A stretch of 64,000 bases of DNA from NCBI RefSeq assembly GCF_902459685.1, contig NZ_CABPSF010000001.1, positions 434,001 to 498,000 on the forward strand. Reading direction: 5' to 3'. This DNA comes from Pandoraea iniqua (GTDB lineage: Bacteria > Pseudomonadota > Gammaproteobacteria > Burkholderiales > Burkholderiaceae). Every line of letters begins with the position of its first letter. The first letter of the stretch is position 1. Both the position numbers and the translations under genes were made by a program. The notes beneath the pieces are model-generated. The model saw nothing but the letters and a program-made list of their open reading frames with translations, was not told the DNA's origin and searched no databases. Shown here piece by piece: positions 37,382 to 47,869 of this stretch.

Positions 37382-38368
37382 ATGACCGAACCTCGCCTCG
37401 TCGCCTTCCTCATCGTGCCGCCGTTTGTGCTGCTGGATCTTGCCGGGCCGCTGGATGCGTTTCACGCGGTGATCCGTAACGTGACGGAGCTTGGGCAACC
37501 GGCGCCGTATCGCACGGTGGTGGTGTCGGCGCACGGCGGACCGGTGGAGACGGGCTCGGGTATCACGCTGCACACCGAGCCGATGCACTCGTTGGCTTCG
37601 ATGGATGTGGACACGTTGATTGCGGTGGGTGGCGCAGTGATGCACCGGCCTGCGGTGCCGGATGTGGTGGGTGACTGGCTGCGCGATTACGCACCGCGCG
37701 TTCGTCGGGTGTGTTCCGTCTGCGTAGGGGCCTTCATTCTTGGCGCTGCCGGGTTGCTCGACGGACGCCGCGCCACCACGCACTGGCTCGACACGGCCAT
37801 GTTGCAGACGTGCTATCCCAAGGCGCGCGTCGAATCCGACCCGATCTATGTGCGCGAAGACCCCGTATGGACGTCGGCAGGCATTACCGCCGGGATCGAT
37901 CTCGGGCTGGCGCTGGTGGAAGACGATCTCGGTGTAGATGTCGCCTTGCAGGCGGCGCGCCGACTCGTGGTGTTTCTCAAGCGCGCAGGCGGGCAGTCGC
38001 AGTTCAGCCCGCCGTTGCAGGAGCAGTTCGCCGCAGGCGCACCGTTCGGTGAGCTGCACGGCTGGATGGCCGATCGGTTGGACGGTGACTTGTCGGTGAT
38101 GCGTCTTGCTGAGCAGGCGAACATGAGCCCGCGTACGTTTGCGCGAAGCTATCTCGCCAAGACCGGTACCACGCCGGCGAAAGCCGTGGAGCGCATGCGT
38201 CTCGAAGCAGCGCGATTTGCGTTGCTCGACTCCGAAGCACCGCTCAAACGTATTGCGTCGCGCGTGGGCTTCGGCGACGAGCAAAACCTGCGGCGCGCGT
38301 TCGTGCGTCAGTACGGGGTTACGCCGGCTGCGTACCGTGAGCGGTTTGGCGTCGAAACCTCGCTCTGA
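37382..38368 (+). CDS. GlxA-family AraC-type regulator (DJ-1/PfpI + HTH)
   Basis: Transcription regulator of 328 residues. The N-terminal 190 residues are a DJ-1/PfpI-like domain (VAFLIVPPFVLLDLAGPLDAF; RVCSVCVGAFILGAAGLLDGRRATTHW, with a cysteine at the nucleophile elbow). The C-terminal AraC DNA-binding domain has two helix-turn-helix units (LSVMRLAEQANMSPRTFARSYLAKTGTTPAKAVERMRLEAA; LKRIASRVGFGDEQNLRRAFVRQYGVTPAAYRERF). Members often sense amines or amino-acid derivatives. It lies between the MFS gene and the RiPP locus and could regulate either; its orientation favours the MFS gene. Confidence 0.87.
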   Translation: MTEPRLVAFLIVPPFVLLDLAGPLDAFHAVIRNVTELGQPAPYRTVVVSAHGGPVETGSGITLHTEPMHSLASMDVDTLIAVGGAVMHRPAVPDVVGDWLRDYAPRVRRVCSVCVGAFILGAAGLLDGRRATTHWLDTAMLQTCYPKARVESDPIYVREDPVWTSAGITAGIDLGLALVEDDLGVDVALQAARRLVVFLKRAGGQSQFSPPLQEQFAAGAPFGELHGWMADRLDGDLSVMRLAEQANMSPRTFARSYLAKTGTTPAKAVERMRLEAARFALLDSEAPLKRIASRVGFGDEQNLRRAFVRQYGVTPAAYRERFGVETSL

Positions 38369-38611
38369 GCCCGACACCACGCACCCGCCACACCCCCTTC
38401 GTTTTCCGCGCGTCGCGTACCGTGTTACCTGACGCGCGTCATCGCACAACAATTTTCGGAATTCTCCGATATCAAGTGCTGCGTCATCCAGTCAACATGT
38501 CTGCCTGACTGACGCCCCCTGCTGTCTCTCCAGTCTCCCTCGCATGACGTCTCGTTGGCGGCCCGCAGCCAACGGGACGATTCTTCTCGCGGGCTATCAG
38601 GAGATGTCTCC

Positions 38612-38770
38612 ATGTCGAAGCAAGCACTCATCGCGCAACTGACCGAAAAACAGAACGCTGCCAAGGACGACGGTTCGATAAAGGAAATTCCGCAAAACGA
38701 ACTCGAGCAAATCTCGGGGGCCGGTCGCGGCAATGCGTTTGTGAACGCTACGTGGAGCCGTGCGATGTAA
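38612..38770 (+). CDS. RiPP precursor peptide, radical-SAM-modified, XYE-like
   Basis: 52-residue peptide starting at ATG 38612, seven nt after AGGAGA. Residues 1-28 are a polar leader (MSKQALIAQLTEKQ...). Residues 30-37 read ELEQISGA, a double-glycine-type cleavage motif as used by C39 peptidases. The remaining core is GRGNAFVNATWSRAM (38-52). It contains two aromatic-x-polar triplets, F43-V-N45 and W48-S-R50, the kind of three-residue motif that rSAM cyclophane-forming enzymes cross-link. The next genes encode exactly the needed maturase, peptidase-exporter and adaptors. The cross-links and cleavage are inferred. An upstream in-frame ATG at 38555 lacks a ribosome site. Confidence 0.8.
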   Translation: MSKQALIAQLTEKQNAAKDDGSIKEIPQNELEQISGAGRGNAFVNATWSRAM

Positions 38771-38793
38771 CGCACGGTCGAGCAGCGATTCTG

Positions 38794-38827
38794 GCGGGCG
38801 CCGGTCGTGATTGAGACCGGCGCCCGC
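38794..38827 (+). terminator. Strong stem-loop between precursor and maturase genes
   Basis: GCGGGCGCCGGTC (38794-38806) and GACCGGCGCCCGC (38815-38827) form a perfect 13-bp stem with an 8-nt loop, followed by TTGCAGCGGGAGG, the maturase ribosome site region. No T-run. It probably works as an attenuator or RNA-stabilising processing hairpin that keeps precursor mRNA in excess over maturase mRNA. Confidence 0.65.
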
Positions 38828-38849
38828 TTGCAGCGGGAGGAGGCAAGCC

Positions 38850-40022
38850 GTGAAACAGTATGTCGAAGTGATTCTCAAGATGTCCGAGCGGTGCAACATC
38901 AACTGCACGTACTGCTATTTCTTCAACAAGGAAAACAAGGATTACGAAGACAACCCGCCTTATCTGTCGGCCAAGACCGCGAGGGATTTCGTCAGATTCC
39001 TCACGTCGTCAGCGCCGCATCTCAAAGACACCACCTTCCAGATCGATCTCCACGGCGGCGAGCCGTTGATGCTGAAGCCCGAGCGTTTCGAGGAGATCGT
39101 GACCATTCTGCGCGATGGACTTGCCGATGCTGAGGCCGTGCAATTCACCGTGCAGACCAACGCGCTGTTGGTCGACGAGACATGGCTGGACCTGTTCTCG
39201 CGTCTGAATATCTATGTGGGCGTGAGCATCGACGGGCCGAAGATTTATCACGACGAGAATCGTGTCGACAAGAACGGCGAGGGCACCTTCGACAGAACGG
39301 TGGAAAAGATTGCACTGATTCGACAAGCCGCGGAGGCGAAGCGAATTCCCGGGCTGGGGGCGATCTGCGTCATGAATCCGAAATTCGATGCGCAGCAGGT
39401 CTACGACACGCTGACCCGCTCGCTCGGCATCACACAGTTGCAGTTTCTGTTTCCGGATGAAACGCACGACTCGGTCGATCCCGCGAATGTGGCAGCGCTG
39501 ACGCAGTTCAGTAAGTCGCTGTTTCAGTGCTGGATGGATGACGAGCGAGGCACCGTGCGCATTCGGTCCTTCGATCGTGTGCTTGACGCGATTCTGGCCG
39601 ATGGCCCGCGCAAGGCGGCGATTCATGACGAGCTCACGCACAGCACGGTGTTCACGCTATCGAGCGCCGGTGACCTTGGGCACGACGACACGCTGCGCAA
39701 TGTGATCCCGGAGATTTTCTACGCCGGCATGAACGTCGCCGATGTCACGTTTACCGAATTTCTCGCGTGGCACGGCACGATCAGCGCATTGCTGGTGCGG
39801 CACTCGGTGGCCAGCGTATGCCGTGTCTGTGTCTGGCGAGACATCTGCGAGATCGCCACCCGCACGGATACGGCGCTCCATCGCTGCAAGTCCGGCGTGG
39901 CAGACCAACACACCGTGTATTGCGATTGCCTCAAGGCGACCTACGAAAAAGGCGCCGAGTATCTCGCGTTACGAGGGGTACCCATTCGGGACATTTCGAG
40001 AAATCTTGTGGAGACGCATTAA
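38850..40022 (+). CDS. Radical SAM/SPASM peptide maturase
   Basis: 390-residue radical SAM enzyme, GTG start at 38850 after GGGAGGAGG. The [4Fe-4S]-SAM motif is C15-NIN-C19-TY-C22. LHGGEPLML is the GGEP-type SAM-binding segment, and VQTNALLVDE and GVSISDGP-like GVSIDGPKIYHDENR are conserved in SPASM peptide maturases. The C-terminal SPASM region has CRVCVWRDIC (Cx2Cx5C) followed by HRC and YCDC. The first auxiliary-cluster cysteines are not obvious: the matching region reads SSAGDLGHDDTLRN. Its place beside a precursor with FVN and WSR triplets suggests C-C cyclophane formation, an inference from the XYE/three-residue-cyclophane family. Confidence 0.88.
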   Translation: MKQYVEVILKMSERCNINCTYCYFFNKENKDYEDNPPYLSAKTARDFVRFLTSSAPHLKDTTFQIDLHGGEPLMLKPERFEEIVTILRDGLADAEAVQFTVQTNALLVDETWLDLFSRLNIYVGVSIDGPKIYHDENRVDKNGEGTFDRTVEKIALIRQAAEAKRIPGLGAICVMNPKFDAQQVYDTLTRSLGITQLQFLFPDETHDSVDPANVAALTQFSKSLFQCWMDDERGTVRIRSFDRVLDAILADGPRKAAIHDELTHSTVFTLSSAGDLGHDDTLRNVIPEIFYAGMNVADVTFTEFLAWHGTISALLVRHSVASVCRVCVWRDICEIATRTDTALHRCKSGVADQHTVYCDCLKATYEKGAEYLALRGVPIRDISRNLVETH

Positions 40023-41030
40023 ATGCAAGGCAAGTTGTTGGTCAGTTCATTTTTGCCGCGAATATTCCGGCACGGCGCGCTTGCGCTTTCATGTCTGTGG
40101 CCGTTTGCGCACGATGCGAACGCCGGCACATGCAGCGCGCCGTGGCCAAACGTCAAGCCGATGCTGGAATCGGCGATTCGATATAGCGACGACGTCAAGA
40201 AGTCGGACCCGTACATCACGCTCACGACGCGCGGCCAGCCCGTGAAGATGTTGCTGGATACCGGCTCCAACGTGCACGTGATCTGGGACAAACGATTGCT
40301 CGGGGGAGACCGGGGTGTGACGGCCGATGAATCTCCTGCCGCAGATGCAACTTCGGGGGAGGTTGAGGAGGATGAAACCCTTCACGCTATTGCGTCATCC
40401 ACGTTAGCCCAACGCACGGTTCTCGACTTGGTCGATGCGCAAGGCAGACGGGTAACACAATCGTTTTATGTGATCGATGAAACGCCGCTGATGGTGGACG
40501 GCTTTTCAGGGATCATCAGCCCGCAATATCTTGCACAAGAGAAAGTCTCGGTCATCGATTTCAAGCATGACTGCTTCTTCGTAAGCGAGCGGTTCGATCC
40601 CGTGGCCGGCGGCAAATTTGTCATGTCCGCCGGGCGTTCACTGCCGAACCCGCATCGGGTGATGGCGATCCCCCTAGGGGTGTTGGGTGCACGCGTGCCG
40701 GTCGTTGTGGATTCCGGGGCTTCCGGCACGACGCTGCTGGGGCGCGTGATCGAACACTCGCCCGCCGGTCTTCGACTCCCCATGAGCATTGACCTGCTAG
40801 GAAACGCCATCGCGAGCGATGAGCGCGCAAGGCTCGTAGATCTCACGATCAACGGCGAGACAGTGATGCGTCACCCGGTAACGCCGGCATTGGCGCTGCG
40901 CGACAAAGGCATCGTGAGTCTGGGGTCGATCGGCATGGACATTCTCAAAGATCGCATTCTGTTTCACGACGACGATCGCCATCGCTTTGTCTTTCTCGAA
41001 GGTGTTCCAGCGCGCGGCGTGACCGGCTGA
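40023..41030 (+). CDS. Exported pepsin-like aspartic protease of the RiPP locus
   Basis: 335-residue protein starting directly after the maturase stop. Residues 1-35 form a signal peptide (HGALALSCLWPFAHDANAG). Two catalytic-type motifs are visible: LLDTGSNVHVIW with D79-T-G and VVVDSGASGTTLLG with D230-S-G. Between them is VDGFSGIISPQYLA, resembling the DGIxGL region of pepsins. The length and spacing suggest a single-chain, two-lobed A1-like protease rather than a retroviral-type half-molecule. It would act in the periplasm. Probable roles: trimming the exported peptide or its leader, or immunity. That is an inference from position. Confidence 0.78.
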   Translation: MQGKLLVSSFLPRIFRHGALALSCLWPFAHDANAGTCSAPWPNVKPMLESAIRYSDDVKKSDPYITLTTRGQPVKMLLDTGSNVHVIWDKRLLGGDRGVTADESPAADATSGEVEEDETLHAIASSTLAQRTVLDLVDAQGRRVTQSFYVIDETPLMVDGFSGIISPQYLAQEKVSVIDFKHDCFFVSERFDPVAGGKFVMSAGRSLPNPHRVMAIPLGVLGARVPVVVDSGASGTTLLGRVIEHSPAGLRLPMSIDLLGNAIASDERARLVDLTINGETVMRHPVTPALALRDKGIVSLGSIGMDILKDRILFHDDDRHRFVFLEGVPARGVTG

Positions 41031-41079
41031 GTCACCTTTCGATAGTCGGACGACGACGTCCATATCCCCCGGGGAGTCC

Positions 41080-42333
41080 ATGTTTCGCGACGCAGCGCTG
41101 GCGGCCGACCGGCCGCAATGGCTTGGCGAAGTCCTGCTGATACCCCCAACGTCCCTGCGGGTGGCCGCCGTCGCTTCGACGGTCGTGGCGGCGGCGACCG
41201 TGATGTTGCTGGTCTGGGGGACGTACACACATCGCGCCACCGTCGTCGGCCGGTTGGTGCCTTCAGCGGGGTTTGCCAAGGTGTATGCACCGAGTGTCGG
41301 CGTTGTGATCAGGCGGCATGTCGCAGAAGGACAGCGCGTCAATGAAGGCGATGTGCTCTTTGTGCTCTCCGCCGAGCGTCGCAGTGCGGCGGGGGATGGG
41401 CTCGGCTCGCAGGTGGCCCAGCGAATCGAGGCGCGTGTGGCGTCGCTTCAGGAGGATCTGACCGATATGACACGCATGCACTCGATAGCGCTAGAGACGC
41501 AGCGACAAACGATTGCAGCACGCTCGGAGGAGCTGGCAAAGCTCGATGGCCTGATTCAGAGCCAACGTGAGCGAGTGGCGCTCGCCAGTGCCAACGCCCA
41601 TCGGTATGCGCGCTTGCTTGCCCGGTCGTACGTCTCTCGTGAGCAAAGTCAGGAAAAGCGCGCAACGTATCTCGAACAACGTGCCCAGTTTCAGTCGCTT
41701 CAACGCGAGCGGGTAGTCATGACCCGGATGTTGAGCGCCGATCGGCAGCGGCTTGATGCGCTGCCCCACGCACAGCGGGTCGAGCGCTCGCAGCGCACAC
41801 GCGAGCTTGCCCTACTGAAGCAGGAACTGGCCGAGAGCGAAGGCAAGCGAGCGTTCTCCGTGATTGCGCCCGCCAACGGTATCGCTACGGCAGTGATGGC
41901 GGAGGTTGGGCAAACGGTCACCGCCGCGATGCCGCTGATGTCGATCGTGCCGACGGACTCGCGGCTCGAAGCTCACCTTTACGTGACGAGCGACGCCGTC
42001 GGTTTTATGCAGGCGGGCGACCCGGTACGCCTTCGCTATCGTGCCTTCGCACATCAGAAGTTCGGTCAGTTTCCGGGCACGGTGACGTCGGTTTCATGGG
42101 CCGCGCTCCCGCATGCGGAGATCGCCGACATCGATCCCTATGAGGGCCGTAAGGGCACGCAGACACCGCTTTATCTCGTCAAAGTCCGTCTGGATGATCC
42201 GTCGACCCACGCCGGCACTCGACCGTTGGTGCTACGTGCCGGCATGCAACTCGATGCCGATGTCATGCGGGAGACGCGACGCCTTTATGAGTGGGCATTT
42301 CACCCGTTGCAAGGTCTGCGACAGCAATGGTGA
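41080..42333 (+). CDS. HlyD-family membrane fusion protein of the RiPP exporter
   Basis: Periplasmic adaptor (417 aa) of a type I secretion-like exporter. One N-terminal membrane helix (LRVAAVASTVVAAATVMLLVWGTY, residues 25-48) is followed by a biotinyl-lipoyl half-domain (VYAPSVGVVIRRHVAEGQRVNEGDVLFVL). Then comes a long alpha-helical hairpin (coiled coil, about residues 105-255) and SVIAPANGIATAVMAEVGQTVTAAMPLMSIVP as the returning lipoyl half and beta barrel. It couples the C39 ABC exporter downstream to the TolC-like channel. GGGGAG serves as ribosome site. Confidence 0.9.
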   Translation: MFRDAALAADRPQWLGEVLLIPPTSLRVAAVASTVVAAATVMLLVWGTYTHRATVVGRLVPSAGFAKVYAPSVGVVIRRHVAEGQRVNEGDVLFVLSAERRSAAGDGLGSQVAQRIEARVASLQEDLTDMTRMHSIALETQRQTIAARSEELAKLDGLIQSQRERVALASANAHRYARLLARSYVSREQSQEKRATYLEQRAQFQSLQRERVVMTRMLSADRQRLDALPHAQRVERSQRTRELALLKQELAESEGKRAFSVIAPANGIATAVMAEVGQTVTAAMPLMSIVPTDSRLEAHLYVTSDAVGFMQAGDPVRLRYRAFAHQKFGQFPGTVTSVSWAALPHAEIADIDPYEGRKGTQTPLYLVKVRLDDPSTHAGTRPLVLRAGMQLDADVMRETRRLYEWAFHPLQGLRQQW

Positions 42334-42348
42334 GGGGTGAGTTGTTCT

Positions 42349-44514
42349 ATGTTCGATAGGTTCCGGCTGAACGACGCCTTTGGCCGGCGCACGCCGTCCG
42401 TCCTCCAGACCGAGGCGGCCGAATGCGGCCTCGCGTGTCTGGCGATGATCGCTGGCTTTCATGGCCATCAAATCGATTTGCCGTCGCTGCGCGCGCGCTT
42501 TCCGATGTCGCAGATGGGCGTGACGCTAGCGAGTCTCGTCAGCATCGCCCGCTGTCTGCATCTTGCCAGCCGGCCGGTCAGTCTCGATCTCGATGCGCTC
42601 GGCAAGCTGAAACTCCCCTGCGTTCTCCATTGGAACTTCAACCACTTTGTCGTGCTGGTGCGCGTCGGTTCGCGCGACCTCACGATTCACGATCCCGCAC
42701 AGGGGCCGCGCAGGGTGAGCCTGACGGAGGCGTCGGGATCTTTCACCGGTGTAGCGCTTGAGCTATGGCCGCACGAAGCGTTTGTCGCTCGAAACGAAAC
42801 GCGGAATACGCGCATGACGGACCTGCTGGGTACCGTCACCGGTTTGATCCCGGCCATGGCACAGGTGTTTGTGCTGGCCTTGTCGTTGGAAATCTTCGTG
42901 TTGGTCTCGCCGTTCTATCTGCAATGGGTCATCGATCACGCGCTGGTCTCGGGTGACCGTGACCTATTGCTCACGCTGATGATCGGGTTCTCTTTGTTGC
43001 TGGTGTGTCAGCACGGCGTGGCTGCGCTTCGGTCTTGGGCACTCATGCGATTGGGGGCGACGTGGAATCTTCAGTGGCGCGCGAATCTGTTCTCTCATCT
43101 GGTGCGTCTCCCGGTGCAGTACTTCATCCGCCGCCATCTCGGGGACGTGCTTTCGCGATTCGGCGCGGTCGATGAAATTCAGCGCACGCTCACCATGTCA
43201 TTCATCGAGGGCGTGCTCGATGGCGCGATGGCGTTCCTGACGCTGGCGCTCATGTTTGTCTACAGTCCGCCGCTGGCCACTATTGCGCTTGGTTTTATGG
43301 TGTTCTACGCGGTGCTGCGACTCGGCCTGTTTCGTGCTTTACGCCGCGCAACCGAGGCGCATCTGGTCCATGCGTCGCGTCAACAGAGTCATTTTCTGGA
43401 GACGTTGCGAGGCATCAAGACCATCAAGCTTTTCTCGCGAGAGGACGATCGATGCTCGACGTGGCTGACGTTGCTCGTGCGCCAGATCAACGCCGATCTG
43501 CGGATTCAGCGGCTGACGATGATCCATAAACACGCCAACGGTTTCCTGATGGGGGCTGAGAACATTCTGATCGTCTGGCTGGGCGCCACGTTCGTGATTG
43601 ACGGTCGATTCACGGCAGGCGCACTGATCGCGTTGCTCGCGTACAAGTTGCAGTTTCAGACGCGGATGAGTTCGTTGATCGACAAACTGGCCGAGTACCG
43701 GATGCTGGGGTTGCAGGCCGCGCGACTGGCCGATATTGCGTTGAGCGCACCGGAGTCACCCGCCATCGACTTCTCGACGTCCACGCCGGAAACGTCTGCC
43801 GACGGCGATGTGGCGCTTGCGGTCACGCGACTCAGCTTTCGCTATAGCGAGTACGAGCGCCTCATTCTTGAGGACGTCACGTTCTTCATTCGGGCGGGCG
43901 AATCGGTGGCGATTGTCGGACCGTCGGGGTGTGGGAAGTCGACGCTGGCGCATTTGCTGCTCGGCATTCTTACGCCGACAGCCGGCGAGATCCTGCTCTC
44001 GGGTAAGCCAGTGGGTGCGTTGGGCGTGAGTCGTTTGCGACAGGCCGTAGGTACCGTCATGCAGGACGACACGCTGCTGGCCGGGTCGCTCGCCGACAAC
44101 GTGAGTTTCTTCGACACGCAGGCGGACGCCGCATGGATTCATGAGTGCGCGCGGCTTGCCTGTATCGACCAAGAGATCGAGGCCATGCCGATGGGTTACA
44201 ACACCCTCGTCGGCGATATGGGGACGGTGCTCTCTGGCGGGCAGAAGCAACGCATTTTGCTCGCTCGGGCCTTGTACAAGCGCCCCCGAATGTTGCTGCT
44301 CGACGAGGCGACGAGCCATCTTGATGCGGACAACGAGAAGCAAGTGAACGAGGCGGTTCGATCACTACGCATGACGCGGCTGATCATCGCGCATCGTGCG
44401 GAGACAATTGCCACGGCTGACCGGGTGATAGCCCTCCATGGCGGCCGAATCGTCGCTGACCAGCCGCAACCGAATCGTCCAGCCGATGCCACGGCCGTGG
44501 CGCCAACATCGTGA
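42349..44514 (+). CDS. C39 peptidase-containing ABC exporter (RiPP transport)
   Basis: 721-residue inner-membrane ABC exporter with an N-terminal peptidase domain. Catalytic residues are all present: QTEAAEC26GLAC, NH99FVVL and HD115PAQG. So it should cleave the precursor after its ISGA motif. A six-helix transmembrane domain follows (about 160-440). The ATPase has Walker [12 protein letters not shown] (near 525), signature LSGGQKQRILLARAL (near 627) and Walker B MLLLDEATSHLD. ATG 42349, with AGGGGTGA 8 nt upstream, is preferred over the GTG at 42337. The stop overlaps the TolC-like start (GTGA). Confidence 0.93.
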   Translation: MFDRFRLNDAFGRRTPSVLQTEAAECGLACLAMIAGFHGHQIDLPSLRARFPMSQMGVTLASLVSIARCLHLASRPVSLDLDALGKLKLPCVLHWNFNHFVVLVRVGSRDLTIHDPAQGPRRVSLTEASGSFTGVALELWPHEAFVARNETRNTRMTDLLGTVTGLIPAMAQVFVLALSLEIFVLVSPFYLQWVIDHALVSGDRDLLLTLMIGFSLLLVCQHGVAALRSWALMRLGATWNLQWRANLFSHLVRLPVQYFIRRHLGDVLSRFGAVDEIQRTLTMSFIEGVLDGAMAFLTLALMFVYSPPLATIALGFMVFYAVLRLGLFRALRRATEAHLVHASRQQSHFLETLRGIKTIKLFSREDDRCSTWLTLLVRQINADLRIQRLTMIHKHANGFLMGAENILIVWLGATFVIDGRFTAGALIALLAYKLQFQTRMSSLIDKLAEYRMLGLQAARLADIALSAPESPAIDFSTSTPETSADGDVALAVTRLSFRYSEYERLILEDVTFFIRAGESVAIVGPSGCGKSTLAHLLLGILTPTAGEILLSGKPVGALGVSRLRQAVGTVMQDDTLLAGSLADNVSFFDTQADAAWIHECARLACIDQEIEAMPMGYNTLVGDMGTVLSGGQKQRILLARALYKRPRMLLLDEATSHLDADNEKQVNEAVRSLRMTRLIIAHRAETIATADRVIALHGGRIVADQPQPNRPADATAVAPTS

Positions 44515-46169
44515 TTCACCGGCGTTGGCTCCTACGCGGCCTACTGCTGTCATGCTTGATCGCGAATGACGTTACGGGGGCGAGGTGCATGCCGATCGAT
44601 GCAGACGCATCGACATTGCCCGCGGCTTCCAATGATGTGGGCATGGTGTTGTCGTTGCATGACGCGATACGGCAGGCATTGGCATTCGATCCCAAAGTCC
44701 GGCAGACGTGGGCCGCTGTCGCGCGTCGATCGGCGGACATCGGTGTGGCGCGTGCGGCGTATTTTCCGTCGATTGATGTCAACGCTGCGGTGTCGCGCGT
44801 GAATCGGTATTCACGCTGGGGTGGTCAAGGGGAGGGCGCAGCGCACGGTGTTGGGAGTGAGGGCGATCAGGGAATCAACATGAGTTGGCTGCTGCTGGAT
44901 TTCGGCTCGCGCGAAGCCCGTCTGAACGAAGCGCGCAGCCGGCTTGCCGCCGCGTCGGCGACACAGGATGCCAGTCTTCAGCAGGCGGCGTTCGATGTGG
45001 CTCGCGCCTACTACGCGGCGTTCGAAGCGCAGTCGCTGCTGCGCGCCGCGCGCGTGGCGGAGCAACTCTCTCTCGACAGCGTCGCGGCGGCCTGTGCCCG
45101 GCACGAAGCCGGCGCGGGTACGCTCGCGGATGTACTGCAAGCAAGAACGGCCCACGCTCGCGCTGAGCTCACCCGTCTGGAAGCCTTGACGAGTGCGGTC
45201 TCGCGCATGGGGGCACTGGCAGCGATGATTGGCGCCGATATGAACACCGTGTTTCGACTCGATGACGTGGAAAGCGGCGGGACCGTCGACCCGCTTCCGC
45301 AACGGGATTCGGAGAATATGCTGGCAGCATCAGCATCAGCATCAGCATCAGCATCAGCATCAGCATCAGCATCAGCATCAGCATCATCGTTTTCGATGCA
45401 CTCGATAGATGAATTGCTGGCGCTTGCCCGGCATCACCATCCCGCGTTGCGCGCCGCGAGCGCCGAGGTCCATGCGGAGCAGGCAAGGCGCGACACCTTG
45501 CGCTATGCGTGGGCACCGAGCGTCACCCTAGTGGGTGGCATCAATCGTGAAACGCGTCATGGTGCGTTTGCCGTCGATGGCCCCGTGACGGCGGCCAGCA
45601 TCGGCATCCGGATCAGCATTCCCCTCTACGACGGCGGAGACCGGCGGTACCGCACGGCGGCGGCAAACGCGTTGGTCGACGTGGAACAGGCGAAGCTGGC
45701 AGAAGCCGAACGAGGTGTCGCGATGGCGGTCTGGCAGAACTATCAGGCACTGCGTGCGTTGTCGGCGCGCGGGGCCGTGGAACAGCGATTGCTCGCCGAC
45801 GCGAGGCAGTCATTCGAAATGGCACGTGGCCGGTATCGCGAAGGGGCCGGAACTATGGAGGCGCTGGTCACTGCGCAAACAGCGCTCGCCGATGCAAAGC
45901 ATGTCATCGTGGCCTCGCGCGCGCGGTGGCAGACGGTGCGTTTGCGGCTGGCGATCAGTATCGGACAACTCGATGTTCGTGTTCCCGGCAGGACGCTTGA
46001 CCCCGGAATCAGCGCTAACGTTAGCCCAAGCCATGGCCCCAGCGTGAATCCGAGCTCAAGCCCAAGCCCCGACGTTAACGCTGACTCCGGCTCTACGCCG
46101 CCTGCTTCCCGGCCGCCGCCCGATCGAGAAAGCGGAAAAGCCGGGCGTCATCCGAATACGCCACATTAA
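44511..46169 (+). CDS. TolC-like outer membrane efflux protein with Ala-Ser repeat
   Basis: 552-residue outer-membrane factor. GTG start in a 4-nt overlap with the ABC exporter, signal peptide RRWLLRGLLLSCLIANDVTGA. Two structural repeats of the OEP family: LSLHDAIRQALAFDPKVRQTWAAVARRSADIGVARAAYFPSIDVNA, and MHSIDELLALARHHHPALRAASAEVHAEQARRD with SIGIRISIPLYDGGDRRYRTAAA. Between them is a (Ala-Ser)x10 tract coded by ten GCATCA units. The C-terminal 50 residues are a Ser/Pro-rich tail, and the last 77 nt overlap the convergent MocR gene. It would complete the three-part exporter for the RiPP. Confidence 0.87.
   Translation: MIHRRWLLRGLLLSCLIANDVTGARCMPIDADASTLPAASNDVGMVLSLHDAIRQALAFDPKVRQTWAAVARRSADIGVARAAYFPSIDVNAAVSRVNRYSRWGGQGEGAAHGVGSEGDQGINMSWLLLDFGSREARLNEARSRLAAASATQDASLQQAAFDVARAYYAAFEAQSLLRAARVAEQLSLDSVAAACARHEAGAGTLADVLQARTAHARAELTRLEALTSAVSRMGALAAMIGADMNTVFRLDDVESGGTVDPLPQRDSENMLAASASASASASASASASASASSFSMHSIDELLALARHHHPALRAASAEVHAEQARRDTLRYAWAPSVTLVGGINRETRHGAFAVDGPVTAASIGIRISIPLYDGGDRRYRTAAANALVDVEQAKLAEAERGVAMAVWQNYQALRALSARGAVEQRLLADARQSFEMARGRYREGAGTMEALVTAQTALADAKHVIVASRARWQTVRLRLAISIGQLDVRVPGRTLDPGISANVSPSHGPSVNPSSSPSPDVNADSGSTPPASRPPPDRESGKAGRHPNTPH
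45327..45386 (+). repeat. Hexanucleotide tandem repeat (GCATCA)10 within the TolC-like gene
   Basis: Ten perfect head-to-tail copies of GCATCA encode alternating Ala-Ser at the junction of the two OEP repeats. As the unit is six bases, slippage changes the length by two residues per unit and never shifts frame. Confidence 0.97.
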
Positions 46170-47541
46170 AGCGGAACCACCGGCAGGGCTCGTTGTGCGC
46201 GAGGAAGAATTCGCCCGGCGCGAGCATGATGCTTTCCGACAGTGCCGCTTCTGCCAATTCACGCGCCGGCAGTGCGGTATCCGGCAAACTCCCACACACG
46301 AACATGCCGCCCTCGGGCTGCGCGAGCAACGTCACGCCGTGCGATTGCAACTGGGTGATGAGCCGGGCGCGCGAGCGAGTGAGCCGGTCAGTCAATCGTT
46401 CGATGTGTTTGCGATGGCGTCCCTCGGTGAGGATCGCGTGCACGATACGTTCGTTGATTTCCGACGACGTCAGCCCCGCAACCATCTTGCTACGCGCAAT
46501 CTCGTGCGCCAGTTCACGCGAACAGGCCAGATAACCCACGCGTACCGACGGCGAGATCGTCTTCGAGAAGCTCGATACGTAGATGACGCGCGACAGGCCG
46601 TCCATAGCCGCTAGCGACGGTGTCCCGGCAGGCGCCAACTCGCGATAGATGTCGTCCTCGACGATCCAGAAGCCGTGCTGCTCGGCGCATTGCAGGATGC
46701 GGTGCGCACAGGCGGGCGTCAGCGACGTACCCAACGGGTTCTGCAACGCCGGGTTCACGAACAGCGCCCGCGGACGGTGCGTTTGCGCCGCCTGCTCTAG
46801 TGCGGCCAGATCGAGACCAGCCTCCGTGCGCGGAATGCCGACGACGTTCACCCCCGCCAGTCGCAATACCGCCAGCAGATTGCAGTACGCCGGGGCTTCG
46901 ACCAGTACAGTGTCGCCCGGCTTGAGCAGCGTGCGCACCACGAGGTCCAGCGCCTGCGTTGCCCCTTGTGTGAGCACGATTTGCTCCGGTGGGGCGTCGA
47001 TGGACAACTCGCCCAGCCGCCGTGCGAGCCACTGCCGAAGCGGCCCGTAGCCGTGAGGATGGCCGTAATGGGCGAAGTGCGCGCCCGGGCCTTTCGAGAG
47101 CGTGCGCAACGCGCCGTGCAGACCGTCTTCGTCCAACCAACTGTCAGGCAGCCAGCCGCAGCCGCTTTTCACGGCGATGCTGTCGTCGGCGAAGATTTCC
47201 GAGAGCAGCCATGCGTTGGTGACTTCGCTTGCCGCGGCACTGGTCACGCGCGCCGCGCCCGGGCTGGCGGTGCCGGTGTCGCGCGCATCGGACGAACCGG
47301 CCACGAAGAACCCCGCCCCGCGTCGCGCCACCAGCGTGCCGTGCGCCACCAGCCGGTCATAAGCTTCCACCACGGTGAAGGTACTAATGCCGTGCGCCTT
47401 CGCCAGCGCGCGGATCGACGGCATGCGCATGCCGGCGTGCAGGGTCTGGCGTTGCAGGGCGCGCTCGACCTCGCGCACGAGCTGATCGACCAGCGCTTCA
47501 GGCTGGGCGCGGTTCAGGGAGAAAGCGAGCGGCTGGACCAT
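46093..47541 (-). CDS. MocR-family regulator (GntR HTH + aminotransferase domain)
   Basis: 482-residue transcription factor. The N-terminal GntR winged helix is LVDQLVREVERALQRQTLHAGMRMPSIRALAKAHGISTFTVVEAYDRLVAHGTLVARRG (residues 12-70). The C-terminal class I aminotransferase-like domain has LTQGATQALDLVVRTLLKPGDTVLVEAPAY, VNPALQNPLGTSL, IVEDDIYRELAPAG and SSFSKTISPSVRVGYLA, the last holding the PLP lysine. Divergent to the omega-amino-acid transaminase gene across a 328-bp spacer, which it probably regulates. Start at 47541 (MVQPLAFSLNRA). The 3' end overlaps the TolC-like gene by 77 nt. Confidence 0.92.
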   Translation of the reverse strand: MVQPLAFSLNRAQPEALVDQLVREVERALQRQTLHAGMRMPSIRALAKAHGISTFTVVEAYDRLVAHGTLVARRGAGFFVAGSSDARDTGTASPGAARVTSAAASEVTNAWLLSEIFADDSIAVKSGCGWLPDSWLDEDGLHGALRTLSKGPGAHFAHYGHPHGYGPLRQWLARRLGELSIDAPPEQIVLTQGATQALDLVVRTLLKPGDTVLVEAPAYCNLLAVLRLAGVNVVGIPRTEAGLDLAALEQAAQTHRPRALFVNPALQNPLGTSLTPACAHRILQCAEQHGFWIVEDDIYRELAPAGTPSLAAMDGLSRVIYVSSFSKTISPSVRVGYLACSRELAHEIARSKMVAGLTSSEINERIVHAILTEGRHRKHIERLTDRLTRSRARLITQLQSHGVTLLAQPEGGMFVCGSLPDTALPARELAEAALSESIMLAPGEFFLAHNEPCRWFRFNVAYSDDARLFRFLDRAAAGKQAA

Positions 47542-47869
47542 GGCTACGGGGGGACGACAGAAAACATAGGGCGCTGGGCTAAAAAGGCCCGCACCGGGCC
47601 GCCACGGCCTGTACAGGTGGCCAAAGCAGCGGGAATGCACGAAATAAGCCCGCCTTCCCGTGTGACGGCGGTTTGCCGCGCGCACGCACTATTGGCTGTT
47701 GCCAATACAGTTGAGGCGATTGACCGATACAGAATATACATTTTCCGCGTCACTGTACATGTCTGTACCGGTCCGGCTCTCGTAGGATCGATCCATCTAC
47801 CCGGAGCGGTGCGCATTCTGCGTGCGGGCGACGGGATTCCTGATCGAGAGAGACTGGGGGAGACCCGCG
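47542..47869. promoter_or_regulatory. Divergent control region mocR / omega-transaminase
   Basis: 328 nt without a gene. CTGTAC occurs at 47609-47614 (inside the palindrome CCTGTACAGG, 47608-47617), 47753-47758 and 47763-47768; the last two are direct repeats 10 nt apart. Two ATACAG hexamers (47705-47710, 47727-47732) are near. MocR regulators typically bind direct repeats one helical turn apart, so these are candidate operators. Confidence 0.5.

Follow-up and report, generated by a model that had tools for sequence, protein, structure and literature searches.

We found that the genome of Pandoraea iniqua (6.34 Mb, 17 contigs) carries a complete operon of the xenorceptide/triceptide kind. Judged from its maturase and its core peptide, it is a new variant beside the XYE/xenorceptide systems, and in part of the genus the protease gene of the operon persists on its own at the same chromosomal locus. 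The course of maturation, export and action that we propose for the product is, in our view, probably the best explanation of this gene set.

Gene content and order of the operon

A first-pass annotation of the window, by which we mean the whole 64,000-nucleotide stretch that was analyzed, had described six consecutive genes in one direction at 38612..46169, and six co-directional ORFs were indeed found there on the plus strand. They encode a 52-aa precursor peptide (38612..38770), a XyeB-like radical SAM/SPASM maturase (38850..40022), a secreted aspartic protease with two D[ST]G motifs (40023..41030; signal peptide judged by eye), a HlyD-family periplasmic adaptor (41080..42333), an ABC exporter with an N-terminal C39 peptidase (42337..44514) and a TolC-like outer membrane channel (44511..46169). 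The precursor and maturase genes are separated by 79 nt, the protease gene follows the maturase gene with a spacing of 0 nt, and gaps of 49 nt and 3 nt precede the HlyD and C39-ABC genes, the latter of which overlaps the TolC gene by 4 nt. The maturase ORF as listed opens earlier, at TTG 38811; we took GTG 38850, which stands behind GGGAGGAG, as its start.

The family names given to the five large proteins were borne out, each protein scoring above its Pfam cut-off: Radical_SAM for the maturase (48.6 bits, cut-off 29.5), Asp_protease_2 for the protease (33.8, cut-off 24.3), HlyD_3 for the adaptor (57.4, cut-off 22.2) and OEP for the channel (178.3, cut-off 22). The exporter matched Peptidase_C39 (112.6, cut-off 22), ABC_membrane (132.5, cut-off 28) and ABC_tran (108.2, cut-off 25), and with its N-terminal peptidase, membrane and ATPase domains it is thus a C39-containing ABC exporter. 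Upstream, the locus is bordered by a conserved gene (37382..38368, plus strand; 87-99% identical in the five other whole-operon Pandoraea loci), which we take from its sequence to be an AraC-type regulator. The other border is a gene on the minus strand (46093..47685) whose ORF overlaps the end of tolC, presumably a MocR-type regulator.

A dedicated outer-membrane gene had been put forward as a trait of this system in its own right. Such a gene is present in the window, but it is a lineage-dependent part of the system: no TolC gene is annotated in the Xenorhabdus bovienii operon and none was found at L021, a locus from another genus of the family, or at L011, from P. terrae, while all six other Pandoraea export modules of this kind that were examined show the order HlyD-C39ABC-TolC. 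The ABC proteins of these modules were 53-59% identical to the window exporter in five cases and 46% in the sixth. No relative of the maturase was found in the stretches fetched around the six modules, five of which carry small double-glycine-type ORFs instead.

Placement of the maturase

The best of 67 NCBIfam matches to the maturase was XyeB (TIGR04496; E 1.5e-73, residues 3-385), at 247.7 bits and thus below the cut-off of 450, followed in order by YhhB, FxsB, sulfatase maturase and DynA. The scores for the other cyclophane families were also below their cut-offs (YhhB, 214.1 of 445 bits; FxsB, 181.1 of 370; GrrM/OscB, 94.2 of 310; DynA, 120.2 of 450; DarE, 84.2 of 650). The window precursor likewise gave no match at E up to 1 to XyeA (NCBIfam TIGR04495, cut-off 33 bits); nor did the precursors of L021, L024 and L027, and no triceptide model matched any of these four precursors. 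The X. bovienii pair, run as a positive control, passed both models (XyeB, 558.8 of 450 bits; XyeA, 69.3 of 33 bits), and plain XYE membership was rejected on these scores. The proposed likeness to XYE/xenorceptide systems is supported, in that XyeB is the nearest family and the gene order matches, with the qualification that the XyeB cut-off is missed and XyeA is unmatched.

The radical SAM CxxxCxxC and SPASM-type cysteines (C15, C19, C22, C324, C327, C333 and C358) were invariant in 11 aligned rows, and the maturase is 31% identical to X. bovienii XyeB. A tree of 25 maturases gave a Pandoraea clade with support of 99/99 for six rows and 100/100 with L021; three remoter Burkholderiaceae loci (L022-L024) joined this group at 94/84, and the XyeB group came next at 85/90. 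L025, from the same family, was placed elsewhere, and YhhB, FxsB and GrrM lay outside. The exact branching order is unsure, given three open inner branches, three long rows and a distant row, L047, whose reading ran beyond its stop codon. The protein thus did not fall outside the peptide-maturase clades but grouped, by NCBIfam and by the tree, with cyclophane-forming peptide maturases, in keeping with its first reading as a peptide maturase. The nearest entry in a PDB sequence search was the radical SAM domain of ChlB (E 1.7e-29). DynA, the dynobactin maturase, is likewise a radical SAM/SPASM enzyme and belongs to this broad group.

The precursor and its core

The precursor had no significant family match. 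Its leader ends ELEQISGA (residue 37), which we read as a double-glycine-type end, and continues as GRGNAFVNATWSRAM; the bacteriocin_sig model gave 14.0 bits, below its cut-off of 15.7. Aromatic-x-N/R/K motifs follow the GG/GA site: the ten-residue core, FVN-AT-WSR-A-M, has two motifs, F-x-N and W-x-R, 2 residues apart. According to the passages of PMC11002830 that were covered, XncB joins residues i and i+2, connecting Trp through its C6 with the beta carbon of Arg or Asn, and Phe through its C4 with that of Asn. The core has one candidate site of each type, namely Phe43-Val44-Asn45 (38738..38746, plus strand), whose F43 and N45 are each shared by 90% or more of 12 aligned rows, and Trp48-Ser49-Arg50 (38753..38761, plus strand), at which W/F-x-R/K was seen by eye in all 12 aligned precursors.

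Conservation of the 52-residue ORF beside its orthologues, on which the original interpretation had been staked, was confirmed at all six whole-operon Pandoraea loci, where it is 52 aa long and in the same place, and also in distant relatives. An ORF of 51-52 aa lies 71-82 nt upstream of the maturase in the window, at the five other whole-operon loci (L018, L008, L019, L027 and L028; 94, 96, 67, 67 and 75% identical to the window precursor), at L021 (41%) and at L011 (49%). All eight share the ending F-[VA]-N-A-T-W-x-[RK]-[AS]-[MILF], the last core residue varying between Met, Ile, Leu and Phe. Over the codons for residues 37-52, synonymous change among the six whole-operon loci reaches saturation while dN is 0-0.14. 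The precursor ORF is hence not a chance one, given its constant length and place, the saturating synonymous change and the few amino-acid changes in the core, and it is under purifying selection.

Further away, L022-L024 have an ORF of 56-57 aa upstream of the maturase that ends WFAN-[SA][ST]-[FW]-S-K plus two or three residues, the annotated XyeA of X. bovienii ends GG-WVNVFARWDKAI, and the precursors of L044 and L043 end WFKLDWKKSF and WVNSFAKWCLRF. No precursor of this pattern was found in the 700-1500 nt listed upstream of the maturases of L025, L026, L030, L031 and L045-L048, which places the pattern in the XyeB-plus-Burkholderiaceae group rather than in the wider maturase clade. Upstream of the L045 maturase there is a 37-aa ORF with W-N-R.

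In the one XYE operon that we compared, that of X. bovienii, the order precursor-maturase-aspartic protease-HlyD-C39 ABC is the same, and both systems have aromatic-x-N and W-x-R/K motifs, XyeB being the closest maturase family. X. bovienii XyeA, however, has three motifs (WVN-V-FAR-WDK) whereas the window core has two (FVN-AT-WSR), and the window operon has a TolC gene added. The daropeptides (DarA/DarE) share the W-S-R/K-x-hydrophobic C-terminal end and the position of the Trp-Arg/Lys cyclophane, as far as the literature passages covered describe them; in the passages of PMC9055067, the darobactin core is WNWSKSF and a working Arg form, WNWSRSF, comes from Yersinia intermedia. Unlike their WNWx(K/R)xF core, that of the window has no W-N-W, so no Trp-Trp ether would be expected, and its operon has its own protease and C39 exporter. 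A W-x-[KR]-[SA]-hydrophobic end fits the W-S-R-A-M of the window, WDKAI of X. bovienii and WKKSF of L044, with a partial fit only for WCLRF (L043), FSKRF (L022 and L023) and WSKAWR (L024).

Locus states in Pandoraea

The system is rare in the sampled genomes. At E up to 1e-60 the maturase was found in 7 of 32 Pandoraea genomes, one of which (G005) has its C-terminal half only, in 12 of 398 family genomes including these seven, and in 2 of 369 class genomes including our own; a maturase profile at E up to 1e-70, with at most 4 candidates scored per genome, gave 5 of 398 phylum and 3 of 399 order genomes, our own in both. In our own genome, of 5 candidates scored for the maturase, one matched at E up to 0.001, and the four named relatives in genome contigs (60-96% identity) are all from Pandoraea. 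No Pandoraea or Burkholderia triceptide came up in a literature search of titles and abstract openings, with subscription papers mostly outside its reach.

The AraC-type gene was found in 28 of the 32 Pandoraea genomes (at that cut-off not in G017, G023, G025 and G030), and the AraC-MocR locus holds the operon in 6 of these, is empty in 10, contains relics in 9 and is rearranged or unclear in 3. The whole operon occurs in G000, G015, G022, G026, G029 and G018; the G018 protease is divided between two frames, and the G026 contig breaks off within tolC. At the empty loci (G019, G007, G006, G016, G031, G011, G013, G009, G002 and G020) the MocR-type gene directly adjoins the AraC gene. Among the relics, five genomes have an intact protease gene alone (G010, G001, G027, G004 and G024) and two a broken one (G008 and G014), while G005 retains the C-terminal half of the maturase with a tolC end, and in G003 a fragment of tolC accompanies a precursor gene that is intact. 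Other genes stand beside AraC in G021 and G012. In P. terrae (G028), no cluster gene was seen at the AraC locus in the stretch covered; a damaged cluster lies elsewhere, with maturase residues about 108-320 missing and the ABC frame interrupted by a stop codon. Operon, protease-only and empty genomes were intermixed in a tree of the AraC gene (a single gene, with 7 open branches), which argues for repeated losses or exchanges.

The region upstream of the operon

A promoter-like block, TTTCGGAATNNNCCGATNTC (38454..38473, plus strand), is conserved at operon and relic loci. It was present at all six operon loci (with one mismatch each in G018 and G029), 158-164 nt before the precursor; at all five protease-only loci, 85-86 nt before the protease start; at both broken-protease loci; and at one of the two other relics. 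By its exact core it was absent from all 10 empty and both rearranged loci. The block has one exact match in its own genome and 8 others with 1-2 mismatches; no regulon was evident at the one 1-mismatch site examined, the other seven being 2-mismatch sites. A scan of 38368-38860 for the sigma-70 consensus found nothing.

Between the block and the precursor lies a 5′ UTR hairpin with a candidate pseudoknot (38548..38593, plus strand), in which the loop CCCGC could pair with GCGGG just before the ribosome-binding site. In an alignment of 7 of the eight precursor-bearing Pandoraea loci, all but P. terrae, each of 112 cells was paired, with one compensatory pair and an invariant pseudoknot helix. 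The covariation exceeded that of slid versions and was reached by 66 of 500 3′-letter shuffles, and so is not above these. Rfam had no family for the 5′ UTR, its two matches lying far below the gathering score, and a search for the hairpin pattern in viral contigs gave 0 matches. We regard the structure as a conserved candidate and no more.

The aspartic protease and its stand-alone alleles

That the operon has its own protease, as first described, is correct, but the XYE operon used for comparison has an aspartic protease as well, its gene being annotated "hypothetical". A stand-alone protease is the part of these findings that a specialist would not expect. The five protease-only genes encode 316-324 aa with N-termini that look signal-like by eye and with both D[ST]G motifs, and all five score above the Pfam Asp_protease_2 cut-off. 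They form one clade in the protease tree (88/100, with a very long outgroup branch), and their history looks like one old fusion of the operon promoter to the protease. X. bovienii, too, has precursor, maturase and protease in this order, which makes it likelier that the protease-only state is derived than that it is ancestral.

The five intact protease-only genes are under purifying selection. Within subclades their dN/dS values were 0.245, 0.337, 0.281 and 0.232 at pairwise dS of 0.35-0.67, which is close to the 0.31-0.44 of AraC for these pairs. Between the two subclades, protease dS was near or beyond saturation and AraC dS was 0.61-0.73 (two pairs computed), so the alleles would be older than the AraC split or have been exchanged relative to it. 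Neutral simulation from three of the genes introduced 3.7-5.7 stop codons on average, and left 1.6, 2.0 and 0.3% of 5000 runs each free of stops.

Among 299 family genomes, with at most 7 candidates scored in each, the protease was found in 15, comprising 14 Pandoraea genomes and G045, each with the operon or relics. No exporter of this family was found in the five protease-only genomes at E up to 1e-100 among the 34 candidates scored, out of some 120-150 in each genome, so it does not seem that the orphan protease serves a kept exporter. The producers G000 and G022 each have another, stand-alone protease that is 36-37% identical to the operon copy and retains both motifs; it stands beside a SurA_N/PPIC rotamase gene (PpiD-like), and the two copies are of unequal length at the N-terminus (304 and 322 aa). 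The distribution, the missing exporter and the additional copies would be compatible with a protective role. A PDB sequence search with the protease gave weak matches only (best E 0.27; retroviral proteases, E about 1-1.5), and an AlphaFold2 model had a mean pLDDT of 33, too low to use.

We give roughly even chances to the explanation that the protease is a maturation peptidase only, with no protective function, and that the protease-only loci are remnants of old deletions that are now disappearing. An aspartic protease holds the same place in the Xenorhabdus operon, and at L022, in a sister clade, that place is taken by a different protein with no Pfam match and a hydrolase-like TGSEGVS stretch, both of which would suit maturation. 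Decay would also fit the two broken genes among seven promoter-protease loci, the 10 empty loci, and dN/dS values within subclades above those of the operon proteases (0.09-0.12 among three close loci; 0.13-0.21 among remoter ones where computable), the AraC values in the protease-only pairs being lower still (0.03-0.11). Decay is harder to reconcile with five genes that remain full-length with both catalytic motifs at this synonymous distance, and with the rarity of stop-free runs in the neutral simulation. We also consider, as a tentative and rather doubtful proposal, that the protease confers resistance (immunity) to the cyclophane peptide and that, after a single fusion to the operon promoter, some Pandoraea non-producers have kept it by itself as a resistance allele. 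A word search of the main text of a review of RiPP leader proteases (PMC10885120) found none of the terms "aspartic", "aspartyl", "pepsin" or "retropepsin".

Predicted product, mechanism and target

In the mechanism that we propose, the maturase would bind the leader of the 52-aa precursor and close a three-residue cyclophane at each of two core sites, Phe43-Val-Asn45 and Trp48-Ser-Arg50, cross-links that we consider likely with good confidence from their fit to the XncB sites. With both cross-links in place the core would be 4.03 Da lighter, and the calculated [M+H]+ is 1633.765 for GRGNAFVNATWSRAM and 1178.541 for FVNATWSRAM. The C39 domain would then cut after SGA37 during passage through the ABC-HlyD-TolC channel; this predicted cleavage and export is the step we hold to be very likely. 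The secreted aspartic protease might subsequently serve maturation, by trimming the low-complexity GRGNA spacer, self-protection, by clearing away peptide re-entering the periplasm, or both of these. Once released, the peptide with its W-S-R-A-M end would be antibacterial against Gram-negative competitors and act on the outer-membrane BAM complex, like xenorceptide A2 and darobactin. By analogy an antibacterial function is reasonably likely, and BamA as the target somewhat less than an even prospect. BamA is proposed because of the C-terminal resemblance, which is our own reading, and the kinship to xenorceptides, which the passages covered of a review (PMC12971899) report to be antibacterials; xenorceptide A2 is reported there to close the BamA gate and to add a strand between BamA strands 1 and 16. 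With two motifs 2 residues apart, and not three as in X. bovienii XyeA, the fit to BamA is not a given.

Self-resistance through BamA was considered and rejected. In a strict test that misses partial differences, no BamA column fully separated five producers (the sixth, G026, was left out since BamA was not found there) from the 10 empty genomes, none separated producers from 19 non-producers, and none separated producers plus protease-only genomes from empty ones.

A signal or metal-handling peptide with the same chemistry and export would account for the operon having no evident dedicated immunity gene except the protease, and the patchy presence of the whole operon, in 6 of 32 genomes, fits many roles. 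We nevertheless consider such a peptide unlikely, given that the nearest characterized relatives, the xenorceptides, are reported antibacterials in the literature passages covered, that the C-terminal W-x-R/K-x-hydrophobic pattern is common to daropeptides, and that the core has no Cys or His. Least probable, and disfavored, is a plain XYE member whose XyeA/XyeB moved into Pandoraea, since the same gene order and the best match to XyeB stand against 31% identity to X. bovienii XyeB, two models missed with a working positive control, a different core topology, a deep clade of its own and a genus-wide history at one locus.

The new variant represents a further lineage, one whose compact core has ten residues and two motifs. 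In the literature passages covered, we met no answer to what protects the maker of this class of peptides. If the resistance proposal were true, the AraC-MocR locus would be a three-state system of producers, resistant non-producers and sensitive (empty) strains, and the occurrence of producer, protease-only and empty states at one locus offers a direct test of what protects the maker.

A conserved 5′ UTR hairpin and a repeat within tolC

The 5′ UTR hairpin, which has a T-rich tail and a candidate pseudoknot (window 38548-38593), is conserved in the seven Pandoraea precursor loci that we aligned, an eighth locus with a precursor, that of P. terrae, having been left out; it was matched once in the P. 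iniqua genome itself. The candidate pseudoknot terminates immediately 5′ of the ribosome-binding site. Within tolC, 10.3 copies of a CAGCAT repeat (window 45325-45386) encode an Ala-Ser run.

Relic loci and other export modules

In one Pandoraea genome (locus L072:1142-1297) the precursor gene is intact and its core, FVNATWSRAM, unchanged, while the maturase is absent and only a tolC fragment lies downstream. The P. terrae maturase (L011:9001-9521 and L090) carries a large internal deletion that removes residues from about 108 to 320; the locus retains its genes for precursor, protease, HlyD and the ABC exporter. Pandoraea also holds six further HlyD-C39ABC-TolC export modules (L091-L096), five of them accompanied by small double-glycine-type ORFs, which are glycine-rich in L094 and L095. 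No clear precursor was seen in the L096 module, where there is a 301-aa ORF that we take to be cupin/JmjC-like.

Protease genes inside and outside the operon

Two producer genomes carry a stand-alone second protease paralogue (L156:7819-8730 in G000, L157 in G022) beside a PpiD-like SurA_N/PPIC rotamase gene. Genome G018 has an otherwise complete operon whose protease gene is broken across two frames (L019:9685-10601), which may be a sequencing error. At a sister Burkholderiaceae locus, the position of the protease is occupied by a protein without a Pfam match (L022:10125-11252), whose TGSEGVS stretch resembles an alpha/beta-hydrolase nucleophile elbow.

At the AraC-MocR locus of five Pandoraea genomes (L057, L060, L068, L069 and L071), an intact aspartic protease is the sole operon gene remaining. 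These stand-alone genes are preceded by the operon's promoter-like block and are under purifying selection.
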